This document shows, piece after piece, positions 6,219 to 14,694 of a stretch of 64,000 nucleotides of DNA. The notes beneath the pieces are model-generated. The model searched no databases and was not told the origin of the DNA. It saw nothing but the letters and a program-made list of their open reading frames with translations. The translations under genes were made by a program, and so were the position numbers. Each line of letters opens with the position of its first letter. Position 1 is the first letter of the stretch. The stretch comes from Salinivenus lutea (lineage in GTDB: Bacteria; Bacteroidota; Rhodothermia; Rhodothermales; Salinibacteraceae). The DNA lies in assembly GCA_002894685.1 (NCBI GenBank), contig NCRC01000006.1, forward strand, positions 1 to 64,000, given 5' to 3'.

Positions 6219-6249
6219 TTGATACTACCCCGCGGCGGCGCCTATCTTG
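6219..6249 (+). promoter_or_regulatory. Candidate Bacteroidota-type promoter of pyrG
   Basis: TTG at 6219-6221 followed after 21 bases by TATCTTG at 6243-6249. This matches the TTG-N19-21-TAnn(n)TTG arrangement of Bacteroidota housekeeping promoters and repeats the pattern seen before mraZ, tdk and dnaX. It lies 43 bases before the chosen GTG start. An inverted repeat (GGTGCGA at 6176-6182, TCGCACC at 6203-6209) sits just upstream. Confidence 0.5.
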
Positions 6250-6291
6250 TTGCCACCCGCCCGTCCTTCCGTCCCCAACCCCCTCCGTGCC

Positions 6292-7983
<1,692 letters not shown>

Positions 7984-8014: not shown

Positions 8015-8665
8015 TCAGAACGTGCGAATGAGGCCGAGCACGCGACCGATGACGTAGTAGTCGGCGTCCGTCGGCGAGAACGTGTCCTCGACGTAGTGGG
8101 GCGCCGCCGGGCGGAGGTGAATTTTGCGGTTGGCAAACTCGTACTCGCGGGCCAGCAGTTGATCCTGGAGGAGGACGGCCACGAGCGTCCGGTTCTGCAG
8201 GTCGTCCCACTCCATCTCCTCAATCAGCAGCAGGTCGCCCTTGTTGATGCCCCTCTCATTCATGCCGTCGTCCCCGGCCCGCCCGAGAAGGCAGTTGTCC
8301 TCGTCGTCGGCGTCACGCAAGAGGGTGTAGTCCACGGACAGGGTGCCGGTGGGCCGCTCGCGTAGGCGCTCCGGGTGGGCGCTGGGGGTGCGGCTCACGA
8401 TGGGCAGGCTCGGAGGGCCGCCGCCCCTCCCAAACGGATCCTGTTCCTGGTCGACCAGGCGGATGCTTCGGGCCTTGTGCTTCTCGCGCTCGATCCACCC
8501 TTTCTTCTCCAGCTTGCGAAGAAGCTTGTAGACCCCGTTTGTGGACGAGATGCCCAGGGCATCCCCAATCTCTTGGAGGGTCGGGGGCTTCTGGTGCCGT
8601 TCGATGTACCGCTCGATAAAGTCGTAGGCCCGATTCTGGCGTTGCGTAAGGGGATCCTTGCTCAT
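8015..8665 (-). CDS. lexA: LexA-family repressor lacking the self-cleavage residues
   Basis: A 216-residue protein with the LexA winged-helix DNA-binding domain (residues 5-70: LTQRQNRAYDFI, PPTLQEIGDALGISS, LEKKGWIERE, ARSIRLVD) followed by an S24-type fold (GINKGDLLLIEE, DYYVIGRVLGLIR). Aligned by eye to E. coli LexA, the Ala-Gly scissile pair corresponds to Ser95-Ala96, the nucleophilic Ser119 to Gly134 and the Lys156 general base to Arg173. If that alignment holds, the protein cannot self-cleave, so it would not be a classical RecA-controlled SOS switch. A 17-base palindrome lies 80 bases upstream. The gene is divergent from mraZ and convergent with pyrG. Family assignment is firm; loss of cleavage is inferred from residues. 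Confidence 0.88.
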   Translation of the reverse strand: MSKDPLTQRQNRAYDFIERYIERHQKPPTLQEIGDALGISSTNGVYKLLRKLEKKGWIEREKHKARSIRLVDQEQDPFGRGGGPPSLPIVSRTPSAHPERLRERPTGTLSVDYTLLRDADDEDNCLLGRAGDDGMNERGINKGDLLLIEEMEWDDLQNRTLVAVLLQDQLLAREYEFANRKIHLRPAAPHYVEDTFSPTDADYYVIGRVLGLIRTF

Positions 8666-8745: not shown

Positions 8746-8762
8746 GTCAACATATGTGTGAC
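8746..8762. promoter_or_regulatory. Candidate LexA operator palindrome
   Basis: GTCAACATATGTGTGAC is an almost perfect 17-base dyad: only the positions flanking the ACATATGT core break the symmetry. It sits 81-97 bases upstream of the lexA start codon in an otherwise featureless spacer. That is the position expected for autoregulation. The binding protein is inferred from location only. Confidence 0.45.
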
Positions 8763-8785
8763 AATGCCAGCGGGCAAAAGAGAAA

Positions 8786-8829
8786 GGGTGAAAATGTTTT
8801 CTTCAGGGGGTGAAAATATTTTTCTGAGG
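8786..8829 (+). repeat. Two tandem 22-base repeats in the lexA-mraZ spacer
   Basis: Two directly adjacent copies begin GGGTGAAAAT at 8786 and 8808. They share most positions, including the T-run and the closing AGG or GAGG. A further GGGCAAAGG follows at 8830 and GGGCAAAAG precedes at 8772, so a weaker periodicity may extend outward. This is the most AT-rich part of the 389-base spacer between lexA and mraZ and could bind a regulator of the division cluster. No protein partner can be named. Confidence 0.5.
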
Positions 8830-8925
8830 GGGCAAAGGCGGTGCCGATAGGGTCTCCGGGAGCATGTGCACACCCCCTAAATCGAACGGAATGGAGGCGA
8901 AAAACGGCTTCAAACGGCGCTAAAC

Positions 8926-8954
8926 TTGACATTGACCAGGGCGCGCGTACATTG
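8926..8954 (+). promoter_or_regulatory. Candidate promoter of the mraZ-ftsZ division cluster
   Basis: TTG at 8926-8928 and TACATTG at 8948-8954 are separated by 19 bases, the Bacteroidota housekeeping promoter spacing. It lies about 100 bases before the mraZ ATG and directly abuts the TGGGG repeats. No other comparable site is visible before the closely packed downstream genes, so this may be the main promoter of the cluster. Confidence 0.55.
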
Positions 8955-8978
8955 TGGAGCGCGTGGGGAAATGTGGGG
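8955..8978 (+). promoter_or_regulatory. MraZ-box-like TGGGG repeats
   Basis: TGGGG occurs at 8964-8968 and 8974-8978 with exactly five bases between, preceded by a related TGGAG at 8955-8959. MraZ proteins are known to bind tandem TGGGN motifs spaced by five bases in front of their own operon. Here the repeats touch the downstream promoter box, so binding would be expected to block transcription initiation (autorepression). Confidence 0.65.
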
Positions 8979-9054: not shown

Positions 9055-9492
9055 ATGGCATTCAAAGGGCAGGCCGAATATTCCGTTGACAGCAAGGGGC
9101 GGGTCGCCATCCCGGCCCAGATGCGGAAGGCTATGTCGCCGGCGGCAAACGAGACCTTCACGATCACGCGGGGCTTTGAGGATTGCATCTTCCTGTACCC
9201 GATGGACGAGTGGGCGGACATCGAGGAGGAGATCGATGAACTGAACATGTACGACCGGGAGGTCCGAACCTTTGTCCGTCTCATCATGCGGTGGGCGAGC
9301 GAGGTCTCCCTCGATGGGCAGGGACGCATCAGCATCCCGAACCCGCTCCTTGACTTTGCCGGGCTCGACGATTCGGCACAAATTATCGGGGCGTTCGACC
9401 ACATCGAGATTTGGGACCCGGCACAGTTCGACGGGTACCTCAACGAGACGCCCGCCGATTACGAGACGCTTGCCGAGAGTGTGATGCGGTAA
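9055..9492 (+). CDS. mraZ: Transcriptional regulator MraZ
   Basis: First gene of the division and cell-wall cluster. A 145-residue protein with two AbrB/SpoVT-like swapped-hairpin repeats: YSVDSKGRVAIPAQMR near the N-terminus and VSLDGQGRISIPNPLLDFAG in the second half, both carrying the DxxGR DNA-contact signature. MraZ forms ring-shaped oligomers that bind direct repeats upstream of its own operon, and matching TGGGG repeats are present at 8955-8978. ATG 9055 was chosen because the conserved MAFKGQAEYSVD start matches the family length; upstream in-frame sequence lacks a credible start. An AGGAGG at 8988-8993 is about 60 bases from this start and probably not its ribosome site. rsmH follows after 30 bases. 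Confidence 0.95.
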   Translation: MAFKGQAEYSVDSKGRVAIPAQMRKAMSPAANETFTITRGFEDCIFLYPMDEWADIEEEIDELNMYDREVRTFVRLIMRWASEVSLDGQGRISIPNPLLDFAGLDDSAQIIGAFDHIEIWDPAQFDGYLNETPADYETLAESVMR

Positions 9493-9522: not shown

Positions 9523-10524
9523 ATGGCCGCCAACGATTCTGAGGACAACGCCTCCCCGGACGGAGATCCGCTGCGGTACGCGACCGATTTCCACGCACCT
9601 GTTCTTTCACATGACGTGCAGACCCGGCTGGTCACGGCCCCGGGCGGACGCTACGTGGACGCGACCCTGGGCGGGGGCGGGCACGCCCGCTCCTTGCTCG
9701 ACGCACTGGGCCCCGACGCCGTGGTGCTGGGCATCGACCAGGACCCCGACGCACTGGCCACGGCTCGCGATCGCCTCGCTGAGGCCCGTGAGGCCGGGCG
9801 CTTCCGGGCCGTCCGCGGCAACTTCGGGGACCTGGAGCGCCTCCTCCGCGCCGAGGGCTTCGTGCCGGTGGACGGCATCCTGCTCGACCTGGGCGTCTCC
9901 TCGCACCAGATCGACGCGCCCGAGCGAGGGTTCAGTTTTCAGGCGGACGGCCCGCTCGACATGCGGATGGACCCGCGCCGCGGCCTCACGGCCCGCCAGG
10001 TGGTAAATGCCTGGCCCGAGCGCGATCTCCGCGAGGCCCTTCGCGACTACGGCGACGAGCGCCGGGCGGGGCGCATCGCCCACGCCATCGTAGAGGCGCG
10101 CCCGCTCGATACCACCGGCGACCTGGCCGATACGGTGCGCGGCGCCGTCCCGCCGCCCGACGAGGTGAAAACCCTCGCCCGGGTGTTCCAGGCCCTCCGC
10201 ATCGTCGTGAATGCAGAACTGGACATGCTGGAGCGCGCCCTGGAGCAGAGCACGGCGGTGGTGCGCCCCGGCGGCCGCATTGCCGCCATTAGCTACCATT
10301 CGCTGGAGGATCGGCGCGTAAAGCGCTACCTCCGCTACGGGAATTTTGAGGGCACGCCCCGCCGGGACCTCTACGGCAACCTGGTGGCGCCCTGGACGGA
10401 GACGCCCCGCGGCCCCATCGAGGCCGGCGAAGAGGAAGTGGCGGCGAATCCGCGGGCCCGGAGCGCCCGCCTTCGCGTGGCCGAGCGACAGGACGATGAG
10501 GAGATGGGCCCCCCGGTTCCGTAG
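9523..10524 (+). CDS. rsmH: 16S rRNA m4C1402 methyltransferase RsmH
   Basis: SAM-dependent enzyme that N4-methylates C1402 of 16S rRNA in the small ribosomal subunit (old name MraW). The 333-residue protein shows the expected order: [10 protein letters not shown] at the start, the SAM-binding [18 protein letters not shown], then [41 protein letters not shown], and [18 protein letters not shown] near the C-terminus. The length is slightly above the typical ~310. It is the conserved second gene of dcw clusters, starts 30 bases after mraZ, and is followed by ftsL after 144 bases. Confidence 0.97.
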
Positions 10525-11211: not shown

Positions 11212-13149
11212 GTGAGCCCCAAGGATCAAATCCGGACCCGGATGTACATGATGCTGACGCTGCTCAGCATTGTGCCCGTGATTGTGGCCGGCCAGATGGG
11301 CTGGGCCGTGATCGCGGACCGGGGCGAACTGCGGGCCCAGGCGAAGGCGCAATCGCGGTCGACGGTCGAGGTGCCGGCCATGCGGGGCCGCATTCTCGAC
11401 CGGGCGGGTCGCTCGCTCGCCATCAACACGGCCCAGTACGACCTCGCCCTGGACCCGACGGTCGACGGCTTCGAGTCGCAGGCCGATGCCTTCTACGAGC
11501 AGCTGGCGGAGCTGACAGGGGCGTCGGCGGCGCGCTTTCGGCAGCAGGTCGCCAACCGACACAGCCCGGAGTACGTGGCGCTCTACGACGGCCTCACGGC
11601 GGCCCAGCAGGAGCAGGTGCGCGAGTGGGAGGTGCCCGGTGTGATTCTGACCCCGGAGTTTGCCCGCCGCTACATTCACGAGACGACGGCGGCGCACGTG
11701 CTGGGGCACGTGGGGAGCGACGGGCACGGCCTCAGTGGGCTGGAGGTGGCCTACGATGATACGCTTGCGGGCACGCCGGGGGAGCGCGTAGTGAAGCGCG
11801 ACCGGAGCGGGCGCATTCAGGCCTTCGTGGGGGGGCGCGTGACGCCCCCTGAGCACGGCAAAAACCTCGTGCTCACCCTCGACCTCGCCCGGCAGGCGGC
11901 CCTCGAAGATGAGCTGCGCCGGGGCGTGCAGGAGAGCGGGGCCGACTGGGGGACCGCGGTGGCGATGGATCCGTCGACCGGTGCCATCCTGGCGATGGCC
12001 AATGTGCCGACCTACAACCCGAACCGGCCCGGGGCGGCGACGGATGCGGCCCGCCGCAACCGGGCGATCACCGACCGCTACGAGCCCGGCTCCACCTTCA
12101 AGCTCGTGGGCGCCACGGCGGCCGTCGACCAGGGACTCGTCGAGATGGACGATTCCGTGGAGACGGGTGACGGGTGGGCGGTCTTTCACGGCTACACGAT
12201 GAAGGACATTTCCGCCTACGGAACGATCTCTTTCCAGGAGGTCCTCTCGAAGTCGAGCAACGTGGGGATGGCCAAGACGGTGCGTCGCCACCTTGAGCCG
12301 GGCGTCTTTTACCAGTACGCGCGCAACTTCGGGTTCAGTCAGCCGACATGGATCGATCTCCCGGGCGAGCAGGGCGGGGTCCTGAAGCGCCCCAACGAGT
12401 GGAGCCAGACCACGCAGACCTCCATGGCCATCGGGTACGAGGTGTCCGTGACGCCGCTGCAGCTGGTGACGGCGTACAGCGCCCTCGCCAACGGCGGGCG
12501 GCTGATGCAGCCCTACGTGGTGGCCGAGCAGCGCGACATGACGGGCAACACCCTCTGGGAAAACGAGCCCGACTCCATCCGCCGGGTGATGAAGCCGGAG
12601 ACGGCCCGGACGCTGCGCCCGGCCTTCGAGCAGGTGGTGCAGGAGGGCACGGGCACGGAGGCCGACGTGGCCGGCTTCGACGTGGCGGGCAAGACGGGGA
12701 CCGCGCTGGAGGCGACCGCGGGCGACTATTCCGACGAGCGGGCGCGGGCGTCGTTCGTGGGCTTCTTCCCGGCCGACGACCCGGAGGTGACGCTGCTGGT
12801 GATGATGGGGGCTCCCGAGACGAGCATCTACGGCGGGGCCGTGGCGGCGCCGGTCTTTCATCGGATCGCCCGGCGGTGGGCGGGCACCTTCCCGGAGGTT
12901 GTGGACCGCATGACCGCCGATCCTCCGGAGACGGTGCCGGCGTCTGTGGAGGGAATGCGGCCGGCCGTCCCGGCGGAGCAGGCGCGCACGCTGCCGGACC
13001 TCGACGGCCTCAGCACGCGCCGCGCCCTCCACTGGCTGCGCCGCCACGGGGTCGACGTGCAGGTGGAGGGACAGGGGGCGGTGGCGGCCCAACGGCCGCG
13101 TTCCGGCACGCCCCTCCCCGACCGCATCCTACTCGAAGGGGCCTCGTGA
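11212..13149 (+). CDS. ftsI: Septal peptidoglycan transpeptidase FtsI/PBP3 with C-terminal PASTA-like domain
   Basis: Class B penicillin-binding protein that cross-links peptidoglycan at the division septum, working with FtsW. One N-terminal membrane helix (about residues 12-35) precedes the pedestal domain (VPAMRGRILDRAGRSLA). The transpeptidase domain has all three active-site motifs: S294-T-F-K297, S348-S-N350 and K494-T-G-T. The last ~55 residues (LPDLDGLSTRRALHWLRRHG...) look like one PASTA domain, common in Bacteroidota and Gram-positive relatives but absent from E. coli FtsI. The GTG start at 11212 is followed directly by a basic segment before the helix. murE begins 3 bases after the stop, so translation is probably coupled. 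Confidence 0.95.
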   Translation: MSPKDQIRTRMYMMLTLLSIVPVIVAGQMGWAVIADRGELRAQAKAQSRSTVEVPAMRGRILDRAGRSLAINTAQYDLALDPTVDGFESQADAFYEQLAELTGASAARFRQQVANRHSPEYVALYDGLTAAQQEQVREWEVPGVILTPEFARRYIHETTAAHVLGHVGSDGHGLSGLEVAYDDTLAGTPGERVVKRDRSGRIQAFVGGRVTPPEHGKNLVLTLDLARQAALEDELRRGVQESGADWGTAVAMDPSTGAILAMANVPTYNPNRPGAATDAARRNRAITDRYEPGSTFKLVGATAAVDQGLVEMDDSVETGDGWAVFHGYTMKDISAYGTISFQEVLSKSSNVGMAKTVRRHLEPGVFYQYARNFGFSQPTWIDLPGEQGGVLKRPNEWSQTTQTSMAIGYEVSVTPLQLVTAYSALANGGRLMQPYVVAEQRDMTGNTLWENEPDSIRRVMKPETARTLRPAFEQVVQEGTGTEADVAGFDVAGKTGTALEATAGDYSDERARASFVGFFPADDPEVTLLVMMGAPETSIYGGAVAAPVFHRIARRWAGTFPEVVDRMTADPPETVPASVEGMRPAVPAEQARTLPDLDGLSTRRALHWLRRHGVDVQVEGQGAVAAQRPRSGTPLPDRILLEGAS

Positions 13150-13152
13150 CCC

Positions 13153-14694
13153 ATGCCCACTAACGACGCACATACGGCCTCGTCGTCCGAAGCGGACGGT
13201 TCCGCGTCGCCGCTGGCATGGTCGGCGCTGCACCGCCGCCTGGACGATGAGGGGCTGCTGGGAACGGTTTGGCGCGGGCGGGAGGCGCCGGCGCCCGATA
13301 CACTTGTGATCAACCACCTGACGGACGATAGTCGGGCGGTGGTGCCCGGCGGGGCCTTCGTCGCGATTCGCGGCGTGGCCGCCGACGGACATTCGTTCAT
13401 TGACAAGGCTGTTCAAAATGGCGCCCGCCTCGTGGTGTGCGAGGCGGTGCCGGACGGCGTGCGTACGCGCCGGCCCGGGGTCGTCTTCGTGCGCGTGACG
13501 GACACCCGCGCGGCCCTGGCCGAACTGGCCGCCGCCCGGTATGGGGACCCGGCGGAGGCCCTGCGGCTCGTGGGCGTGACGGGCACCAACGGAAAGACGA
13601 CGGTGGCCGTCCTCGTGCACCACCTGCTCGCGGCCCGCAGTGCCCCCGCGGGCCTGCTCAGCACCATCGAGGTGCGCGGGGCGGGCGAAGAGGCCCCGAC
13701 CTCGTTGACCACGCCGGGCCCGCTCGCCCTGCACCGCCTGCTGCGTCGCATGGTCGATCGGGGGTGTCGTGCCTGCGTGATGGAGGTCTCCTCCCACGCC
13801 CTCACGCAGAAGCGGGTGCACGGGCTTGCGTTCGAGGCGGCGGTCTTTACGAACCTCACGACCGACCATCTCGACTACCACGACTCGATGGCGGCCTACC
13901 GGGACGCCAAGAAGCGTCTCTTCGACGGGTTGCCGCCGGGCGCAACGGCGCTCTACAATGCCGACGACGAGCACGGGACGACGATGGTGGCCGACACGGC
14001 CGCCGAGGCGGTCTCGTACGGGGTCGAATCCCCGGCGGACATCGCGGTGACGGTGCAGGCGGAGAGACTCGACGGGCTGCACCTGGCGATTGAGGGGCGC
14101 GAGCGGCGCTTTCGGCTCGCCGGGCGGTTCAACGCCTACAACCTCGGCGCCGCCTACGGCGTGGGCCGGGCCCTCGGCGGCGAGGCCGAGGCTGTGCTCG
14201 ACGCCCTGGCCGACGCGCCGCCGGTGCCGGGCCGCTTCGAACCGCTTCGGTTTGACGGAGGGCCCACCGTCATCGTCGACTACGCCCACACGCCCGATGC
14301 GCTCGAGAACATCCTCCGCTCGGTGCGCGACACGGCCCCGGCGGACGCCACGCTCTGGTGCGTGTTCGGGTGCGGGGGCGACCGCGATCGCGGCAAGCGG
14401 CCCGAGATGGGGCGCATCGCCGAGCGCCTCGCCGACCGCGTGATTGTGACGAGCGACAACCCTCGCACCGAGGCGCCCGACGACATCCTGGACGACATCC
14501 GCGGCGGCGTGGAGCGCCCGGAGGACATGCAGTGGATCGTGGACCGCGAGGCGGCGATCCGGGCGGCCGCGGCGGGGGCGGCGCCCGCCGACGTGGTTGT
14601 GATTGCCGGGAAGGGACACGAAACGACGCAAACCATCGGCACCGAAAAACGACCGTTCGACGACCGCGACATGGCCCGAACGTATTTCCGTTGA
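13153..14694 (+). CDS. murE: UDP-MurNAc-tripeptide synthetase (meso-diaminopimelate adding)
   Basis: Cytoplasmic Mur ligase that adds the third amino acid to the UDP-MurNAc-dipeptide. The ATP site GVTGTNGKTTV lies near residue 145. It is followed by EVSSHAL, TNLTTDHLDYHDSM with the carbamoylated-Lys region (DAKKRLF), and the C-terminal FGCGGDRDRGKRPEM. The selectivity motif D435-N-P-R438 indicates meso-diaminopimelate rather than lysine, so the cell wall is probably of the DAP type. The 513-residue length is normal, with a ~20-residue hydrophilic N-terminal extension. In most dcw clusters murF follows; here mraY comes next, so MurF must be encoded elsewhere. Confidence 0.96.
   Translation: MPTNDAHTASSSEADGSASPLAWSALHRRLDDEGLLGTVWRGREAPAPDTLVINHLTDDSRAVVPGGAFVAIRGVAADGHSFIDKAVQNGARLVVCEAVPDGVRTRRPGVVFVRVTDTRAALAELAAARYGDPAEALRLVGVTGTNGKTTVAVLVHHLLAARSAPAGLLSTIEVRGAGEEAPTSLTTPGPLALHRLLRRMVDRGCRACVMEVSSHALTQKRVHGLAFEAAVFTNLTTDHLDYHDSMAAYRDAKKRLFDGLPPGATALYNADDEHGTTMVADTAAEAVSYGVESPADIAVTVQAERLDGLHLAIEGRERRFRLAGRFNAYNLGAAYGVGRALGGEAEAVLDALADAPPVPGRFEPLRFDGGPTVIVDYAHTPDALENILRSVRDTAPADATLWCVFGCGGDRDRGKRPEMGRIAERLADRVIVTSDNPRTEAPDDILDDIRGGVERPEDMQWIVDREAAIRAAAAGAAPADVVVIAGKGHETTQTIGTEKRPFDDRDMARTYFR

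Follow-up and report, generated by a model that had tools for sequence, protein, structure and literature searches.

LexA is a textbook switch that works by self-destruction. Beside the division cluster in the window (the whole stretch of 64,000 nucleotides of DNA from the halophile Salinivenus lutea that was analysed) lies a gene for a LexA-like protein that appears to have lost the means for this, which raises the question of what such a protein regulates and how its activity could be set. This gene, designated lexA2, and its neighbours are arranged as follows:

6247–7983, plus strand: pyrG, convergent with lexA2
8015–8665, minus strand: lexA2, encoding a LexA-like pseudo-protease of 216 aa in which Ser95-Ala96, Gly134 and Arg173 replace Ala-Gly, Ser and Lys
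9055–9492, plus strand: mraZ, the first gene of the dcw cluster, divergent from lexA2
9523–10524, plus strand: rsmH (mraW)
11212–13149, plus strand: ftsI
13153–14694, plus strand: murE

Fold and active site of LexA2

The lexA2 ORF is real, with its ATG start at 8665 on the minus strand. The deduced protein matches the Pfam winged-helix domain LexA_DNA_bind (PF01726; E = 1e-19, 70.5 bits vs a cut-off of 23.7) and Peptidase_S24 (E = 1.1e-8, 35.2 bits vs a cut-off of 23.3), and shows a whole-length match to the NCBIfam model lexA (TIGR00498) with 103.5 bits, below the cut-off of 110.95. For the window protein an AlphaFold model (mean pLDDT 86) was computed with 22 related loci as further input. 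This model aligned from end to end with the LexA of T. maritima (3k2z; Z 16.8), and its C-terminal domain aligned with E. coli LexA (1jhc; Z 15.2, rmsd 2.5, 123 residues). The Pfam scores and the Z values of 15–17 to LexA structures bear out the first-pass annotation, which had described a LexA DNA-binding half joined to a C-terminal half of the S24 type. It had also claimed, from an alignment by eye, that all three functional sites are replaced, and when the sequences were aligned with MAFFT, with E. coli LexA as the anchor for the residue equivalences, the positions came out identical: A84/G85 correspond to Ser95/Ala96, S119 to Gly134 and K156 to Arg173. The scissile Ala-Gly is thus absent, and there is no Ser-Lys pair at the active site. 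Judging from the replaced scissile pair and dyad, LexA2 should be incapable of self-cleavage, as had been proposed, and a RecA-cleavage signal is therefore unlikely for it.

Conservation and phylogeny

Orthologues of LexA2 are carried by relatives of the same order, including Salinivenus iranica CB7 (99% identical), Salinibacter altiplanensis, Roseithermus and Rhodothermus, and related proteins are also present in further families of the phylum. In an alignment of 23 orthologues, Gly134, Arg173 and Asp132 are invariant down to 39% identity. A sequencing error or frameshift at these codons, which the first-pass annotation had named as a possible refutation, is ruled out, since the residues are common to all orthologues. 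With pairwise dN/dS values of 0.06–0.15, lexA2 is under purifying selection. When 55 members of the LexA2 clade and 43 canonical LexA proteins were aligned to E. coli LexA, Arg was found at the K156 position in all 55 members, and Ser at the S119 position was absent in 52 of them, mostly with Gly instead; three members from family f5 retain Ser (PDDSM), with Arg for Lys. The 55 proteins form a single clade (support 100/99) with all canonical LexA proteins on the other side, and the loss of the dyad is ancestral to this clade.

That LexA2 still cleaves itself, through another chemistry or by means of residues from elsewhere, is very improbable. The Ser kept by the three f5 proteins speaks for it, as does E. 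coli LexA K156R, which reportedly retains some cleavage at high pH, but the window protein has neither dyad residue nor Ala-Gly, and both replacements of the dyad are invariant among the 23 orthologues. It is just as improbable that lexA2 is a functionless lexA duplicate in decay: the gene has been lost or broken in some lineages, being reduced to a broken remnant in G350 (L228) and carrying an in-frame TGA in G016 (L069, 8891–9553); however, a relic is contradicted by the dN/dS range given above, and the invariant residues, the ancient clade, the kept synteny and the candidate operators described below also argue against it.

A second, intact LexA in the same genome

The genome encodes four S24-domain proteins, among which, as judged on their sequences, the window LexA2 alone lacks the dyad. 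A search for a second LexA with intact Ser and Lys, suggested earlier as a check, found one on contig 24 (L032/L043). This protein, LexA1, has ISAG, GQSM and SLK intact. Since LexA1, with its Ala-Gly, Ser and Lys in place, is encoded alongside it, LexA2 is not the SOS LexA, and the earlier notion of it as the organism's SOS LexA that had lost cleavage is not supported; SOS induction would remain the task of LexA1. Several lexA1 and recA genes (L043–L060, L250–L257) are preceded by a direct repeat, TGTG-N7-TGTG, which is tentatively regarded as a candidate LexA1 box and resembles the alphaproteobacterial GTTC-N7-GTTC layout. By eye, no copy of this repeat was seen between lexA2 and mraZ. LexA1 was considered as a regulator of lexA2 and set aside, as inspection by eye found no common element.

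Linkage of lexA2 to mraZ

The role of MraZ is poorly understood. Across the order, lexA2 is divergent to mraZ-rsmH-ftsI-murE in nearly every locus showing both, and pyrG is its frequent other neighbour. Outside the order, where LexA2 is still recognisable at about 32–38% identity, mraZ adjoins lexA2 in L105, L106, L108, L111 and L118. Among the sampled loci of canonical LexA, each reaching about 1–2.5 kb per side, none had mraZ beside it, the sole mraZ match in this check (L053) being itself a LexA2. The placement by the division cluster, which the first-pass annotation thought would be notable, is meaningful because it is conserved across families. The exceptions to adjacency are G018, a second copy in G024, and family f52, and no linkage was seen in G060 (f31). 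In two f52 loci (L137 and L139) a dead LexA of the LexA2 clade was observed with mraZ not adjacent. Both lexA2 and mraZ are absent in G014, G015, G021 and G005, of which only G015 is near-complete (98% complete, 3 contigs), suggesting that the two genes were lost together.

Paired palindromes in the lexA2-mraZ gap

The lexA2-mraZ gap contains a pair of palindromes, GGTGAAAA-N2-TTTTCACC, along with candidate promoter elements:

8749–8777, minus strand: candidate lexA2 promoter TTGCCC-N17-TATGTT, read by eye, with conserved surroundings
8787–8804, no strand assigned: predicted LexA2 operator copy 1, GGTGAAAATGTTTTCTTC, 14/16 to the palindrome GGTGAAAANNTTTTCACC
8809–8826, no strand assigned: predicted LexA2 operator copy 2, GGTGAAAATATTTTTCTG, 12/16, 22 bp from copy 1
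8926–8953, plus strand: candidate mraZ promoter TTGACA-N16-TACATT, from the promoter scan
8963–8977, plus strand: two GTGGG repeats 10 bp apart (8963 and 8973), after the mraZ promoter

In the 700 bp preceding mraZ, the best match to the palindrome was scored with a threshold of at least 12/16, using for comparison 29 loci of the same class that lack lexA2 but bear mraZ with sufficient upstream sequence. Such a match was found in 44 of the 50 lexA2-bearing genomes and in none of the 29 lacking the gene (Fisher p 5e-16; both the test and the counts ignore genome relatedness), and a second match of at least 11/16 was present at 37 loci with lexA2 vs 0 without it. Families f5 and f15 each include both states, so the contrast recurs. 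The distances between the copies cluster at 22, 31–33, 41–43 and 54 bp (2–5 helical turns), with a phase coherence of 0.91 at 10.7 bp, a spacing that points to two dimers lying on the same face of the helix.

The palindromes vary among groups. They are imperfect in one half (12–15/16) in the window's genus; in f5, with its more diverged LexA2, the pair is approximately GGTGTA-N6-TACAC(C/T), 31 bp apart; and in f54/f40, outside the order, the site is CTGAACA-N2-TGTTCAG (L111) or a close variant (L105, L108). No clear box was present in some members (G024, G366). GAAC-N4-GTTC, the core of Gram-positive LexA boxes, lies within the palindromes of several members. The pair upstream of mraZ is nearly perfect in G016, whose lexA2 has the in-frame TGA. 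In many relatives the palindromes are flanked by conserved CACATATG on the lexA2 side and TGTGCACATG on the mraZ side (8750–8760 and 8862–8871 in the window).

In G018, lexA2 has been relocated, and a palindrome pair (15/16 and 14/16) is still found upstream of mraZ, together with a promoter-like TTGACATT element and GTGGGG repeats. That the pair stayed at mraZ after lexA2 moved argues that the palindromes serve mraZ. In the whole genomes of G009, G026, G031 and G016 the best matches to the palindrome are at this locus. As to whether LexA2 might also control SOS genes such as recA, a strict genome-wide pattern gave no match within 2 mismatches in G009 and G031 except at lexA2, and a few at 2 mismatches elsewhere in the other genomes searched. 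A large LexA2 regulon was considered and set aside, the strict pattern giving the lexA2 locus only in several genomes; a looser pattern carried no information, as genomes without lexA2 are likewise enriched in palindromic patterns.

The automatic promoter scan found the mraZ promoter and none for lexA2. The palindromes sit just upstream of the predicted lexA2 -35 and are about 100–140 bp away from the predicted -35 of mraZ, on its upstream side. Since this position would give no simple blocking at either promoter, activation or looping is possible. The GTGGG repeats at 8963 and 8973 are likely the MraZ box, distinct from the LexA2 palindromes; MraZ boxes are direct repeats (PMC5282649, PMC8475190).

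Proposed role of LexA2

We consider it rather likely that LexA2 is an ancient, catalytically dead paralogue acting as a local DNA-binding regulator of the lexA2-mraZ region, and thereby on lexA2 itself as well as on mraZ/dcw. The analysis shows that the catalytic residues are lost, that the gene is under purifying selection and monophyletic, that its synteny is kept, and that gene and candidate operator occur together; that LexA2 binds there, which promoter it governs, in which direction and under what signal are what we infer. Two LexA2 dimers would probably occupy the two phased palindromes cooperatively on one DNA face and set the transcription of lexA2 and mraZ/dcw independently of RecA-driven self-cleavage, with a repressor slightly favoured by family precedent. 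As RecA-stimulated self-cleavage should not be able to remove the protein, its activity would have to be set otherwise: relief might come from its own concentration through autoregulation, from a ligand or partner in the pocket of the altered active site, where D132, E149 and R173 are conserved, or from an outside protease. A more speculative idea, possible but doubtful, is that the dead S24 site, with its invariant D132, E149 and R173, has become a sensor pocket in which a metabolite or partner protein is recognised, passing a non-damage signal to transcription of the division/cell-wall cluster. If true, the Bacteroidota superphylum would have such a sensor in one of its large branches.

LexA2 might instead be linked to SOS indirectly, a LexA1-controlled antirepressor or partner lifting it off the DNA after damage. 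LexA-controlled antirepressors that release non-cleavable repressors are known from Gifsy and 186 prophages (PMC3121763), and for LexA-type control of mraZ there is a precedent: in vitro, the LexA of B. subtilis binds DNA upstream of an mraZ homologue that comes from gut metagenomes (PMC3998124). However, no antirepressor-like small gene was identified in the neighbourhood adjoining lexA2, and the tentative lexA1/recA repeat was not seen in the gap, so that we regard this link as unlikely. Ownership of the palindromes by MraZ, LexA1 or another factor, with LexA2 working elsewhere, seems quite unlikely: MraZ is encoded next door and LexA2 binding is a prediction, but the 29 mraZ-bearing loci without lexA2 have no palindromes, most such genomes keep a LexA1-type match, and the core in several members is LexA-box-like. 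MraZ in particular is disfavoured, as genomes lacking lexA2 retain mraZ without palindromes, its boxes are direct repeats, and the GTGGG repeats are separate.

Comparison with known regulators

LexA2 shares with the canonical LexA proteins of E. coli, B. subtilis and T. maritima the winged-helix N-terminal domain, the S24-fold C-terminal domain, the length and a palindromic operator beside its own gene (predicted for LexA2), and the GAAC-N4-GTTC core of the palindromes in some members resembles the Gram-positive LexA box. Unlike the canonical proteins, LexA2 has no Ala-Gly and no Ser-Lys, scores below the lexA cut-off, is divergent to mraZ and has a real LexA alongside. Isolated non-cleavable LexA proteins are already known, and the LexA2 clade would be a clean case of a protease switch converted to another type of regulator. 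The first-pass annotation had drawn a parallel with cyanobacteria. LexA of Synechocystis sp. PCC 6803, in which Ser119 and the cleavage dipeptide are replaced, is presumed to be non-cleavable and non-SOS (PMC3091678) and stands as a precedent; the parallel is only partial in that it is a single diverged LexA, with Ser changed to Asp and Ala-Gly to Gly-Gly (PMC3091678), whereas LexA2 is an ancient paralogous clade with Ser changed to Gly and Lys to Arg, dcw linkage and candidate operators.

The phage repressors 186 CI and Gifsy GfoR/GtgR are also released without self-cleavage (PMC3121763), but they are phage genes with other N-terminal domains and known antirepressors, whereas LexA2 is chromosomal with a LexA winged helix-turn-helix. 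The non-canonical LexA proteins of Bacteroidetes are, like LexA2, alternative S24-type regulators of the same superphylum; they have CI-like N-terminal domains, keep Ala-Gly and Ser-Lys, and run the SOS response (PMC8565304). MraZ, like LexA2, is a regulator acting upstream of mraZ/dcw, but it has another fold and direct-repeat boxes and is found without LexA2 in many relatives. In addition to MraZ, the division cluster would have in LexA2 a second, dedicated regulator. The literature searched, which was mostly without subscription papers, gave no account of a clade of dead LexA proteins linked to dcw, and nothing on a LexA-mraZ pair beyond the gut metagenome study (PMC3998124). For LexA and Salinibacter, the paper richest in mentions of LexA uses the S. 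ruber genome merely as a composition control.

Active-site residues are also missing from the LexA1 of G033 (L056) and G036 (L057), which have A/C and T/K at the dyad positions. This is an independent second loss, separate from that of LexA2, and species of this type may be without any cleavable LexA.
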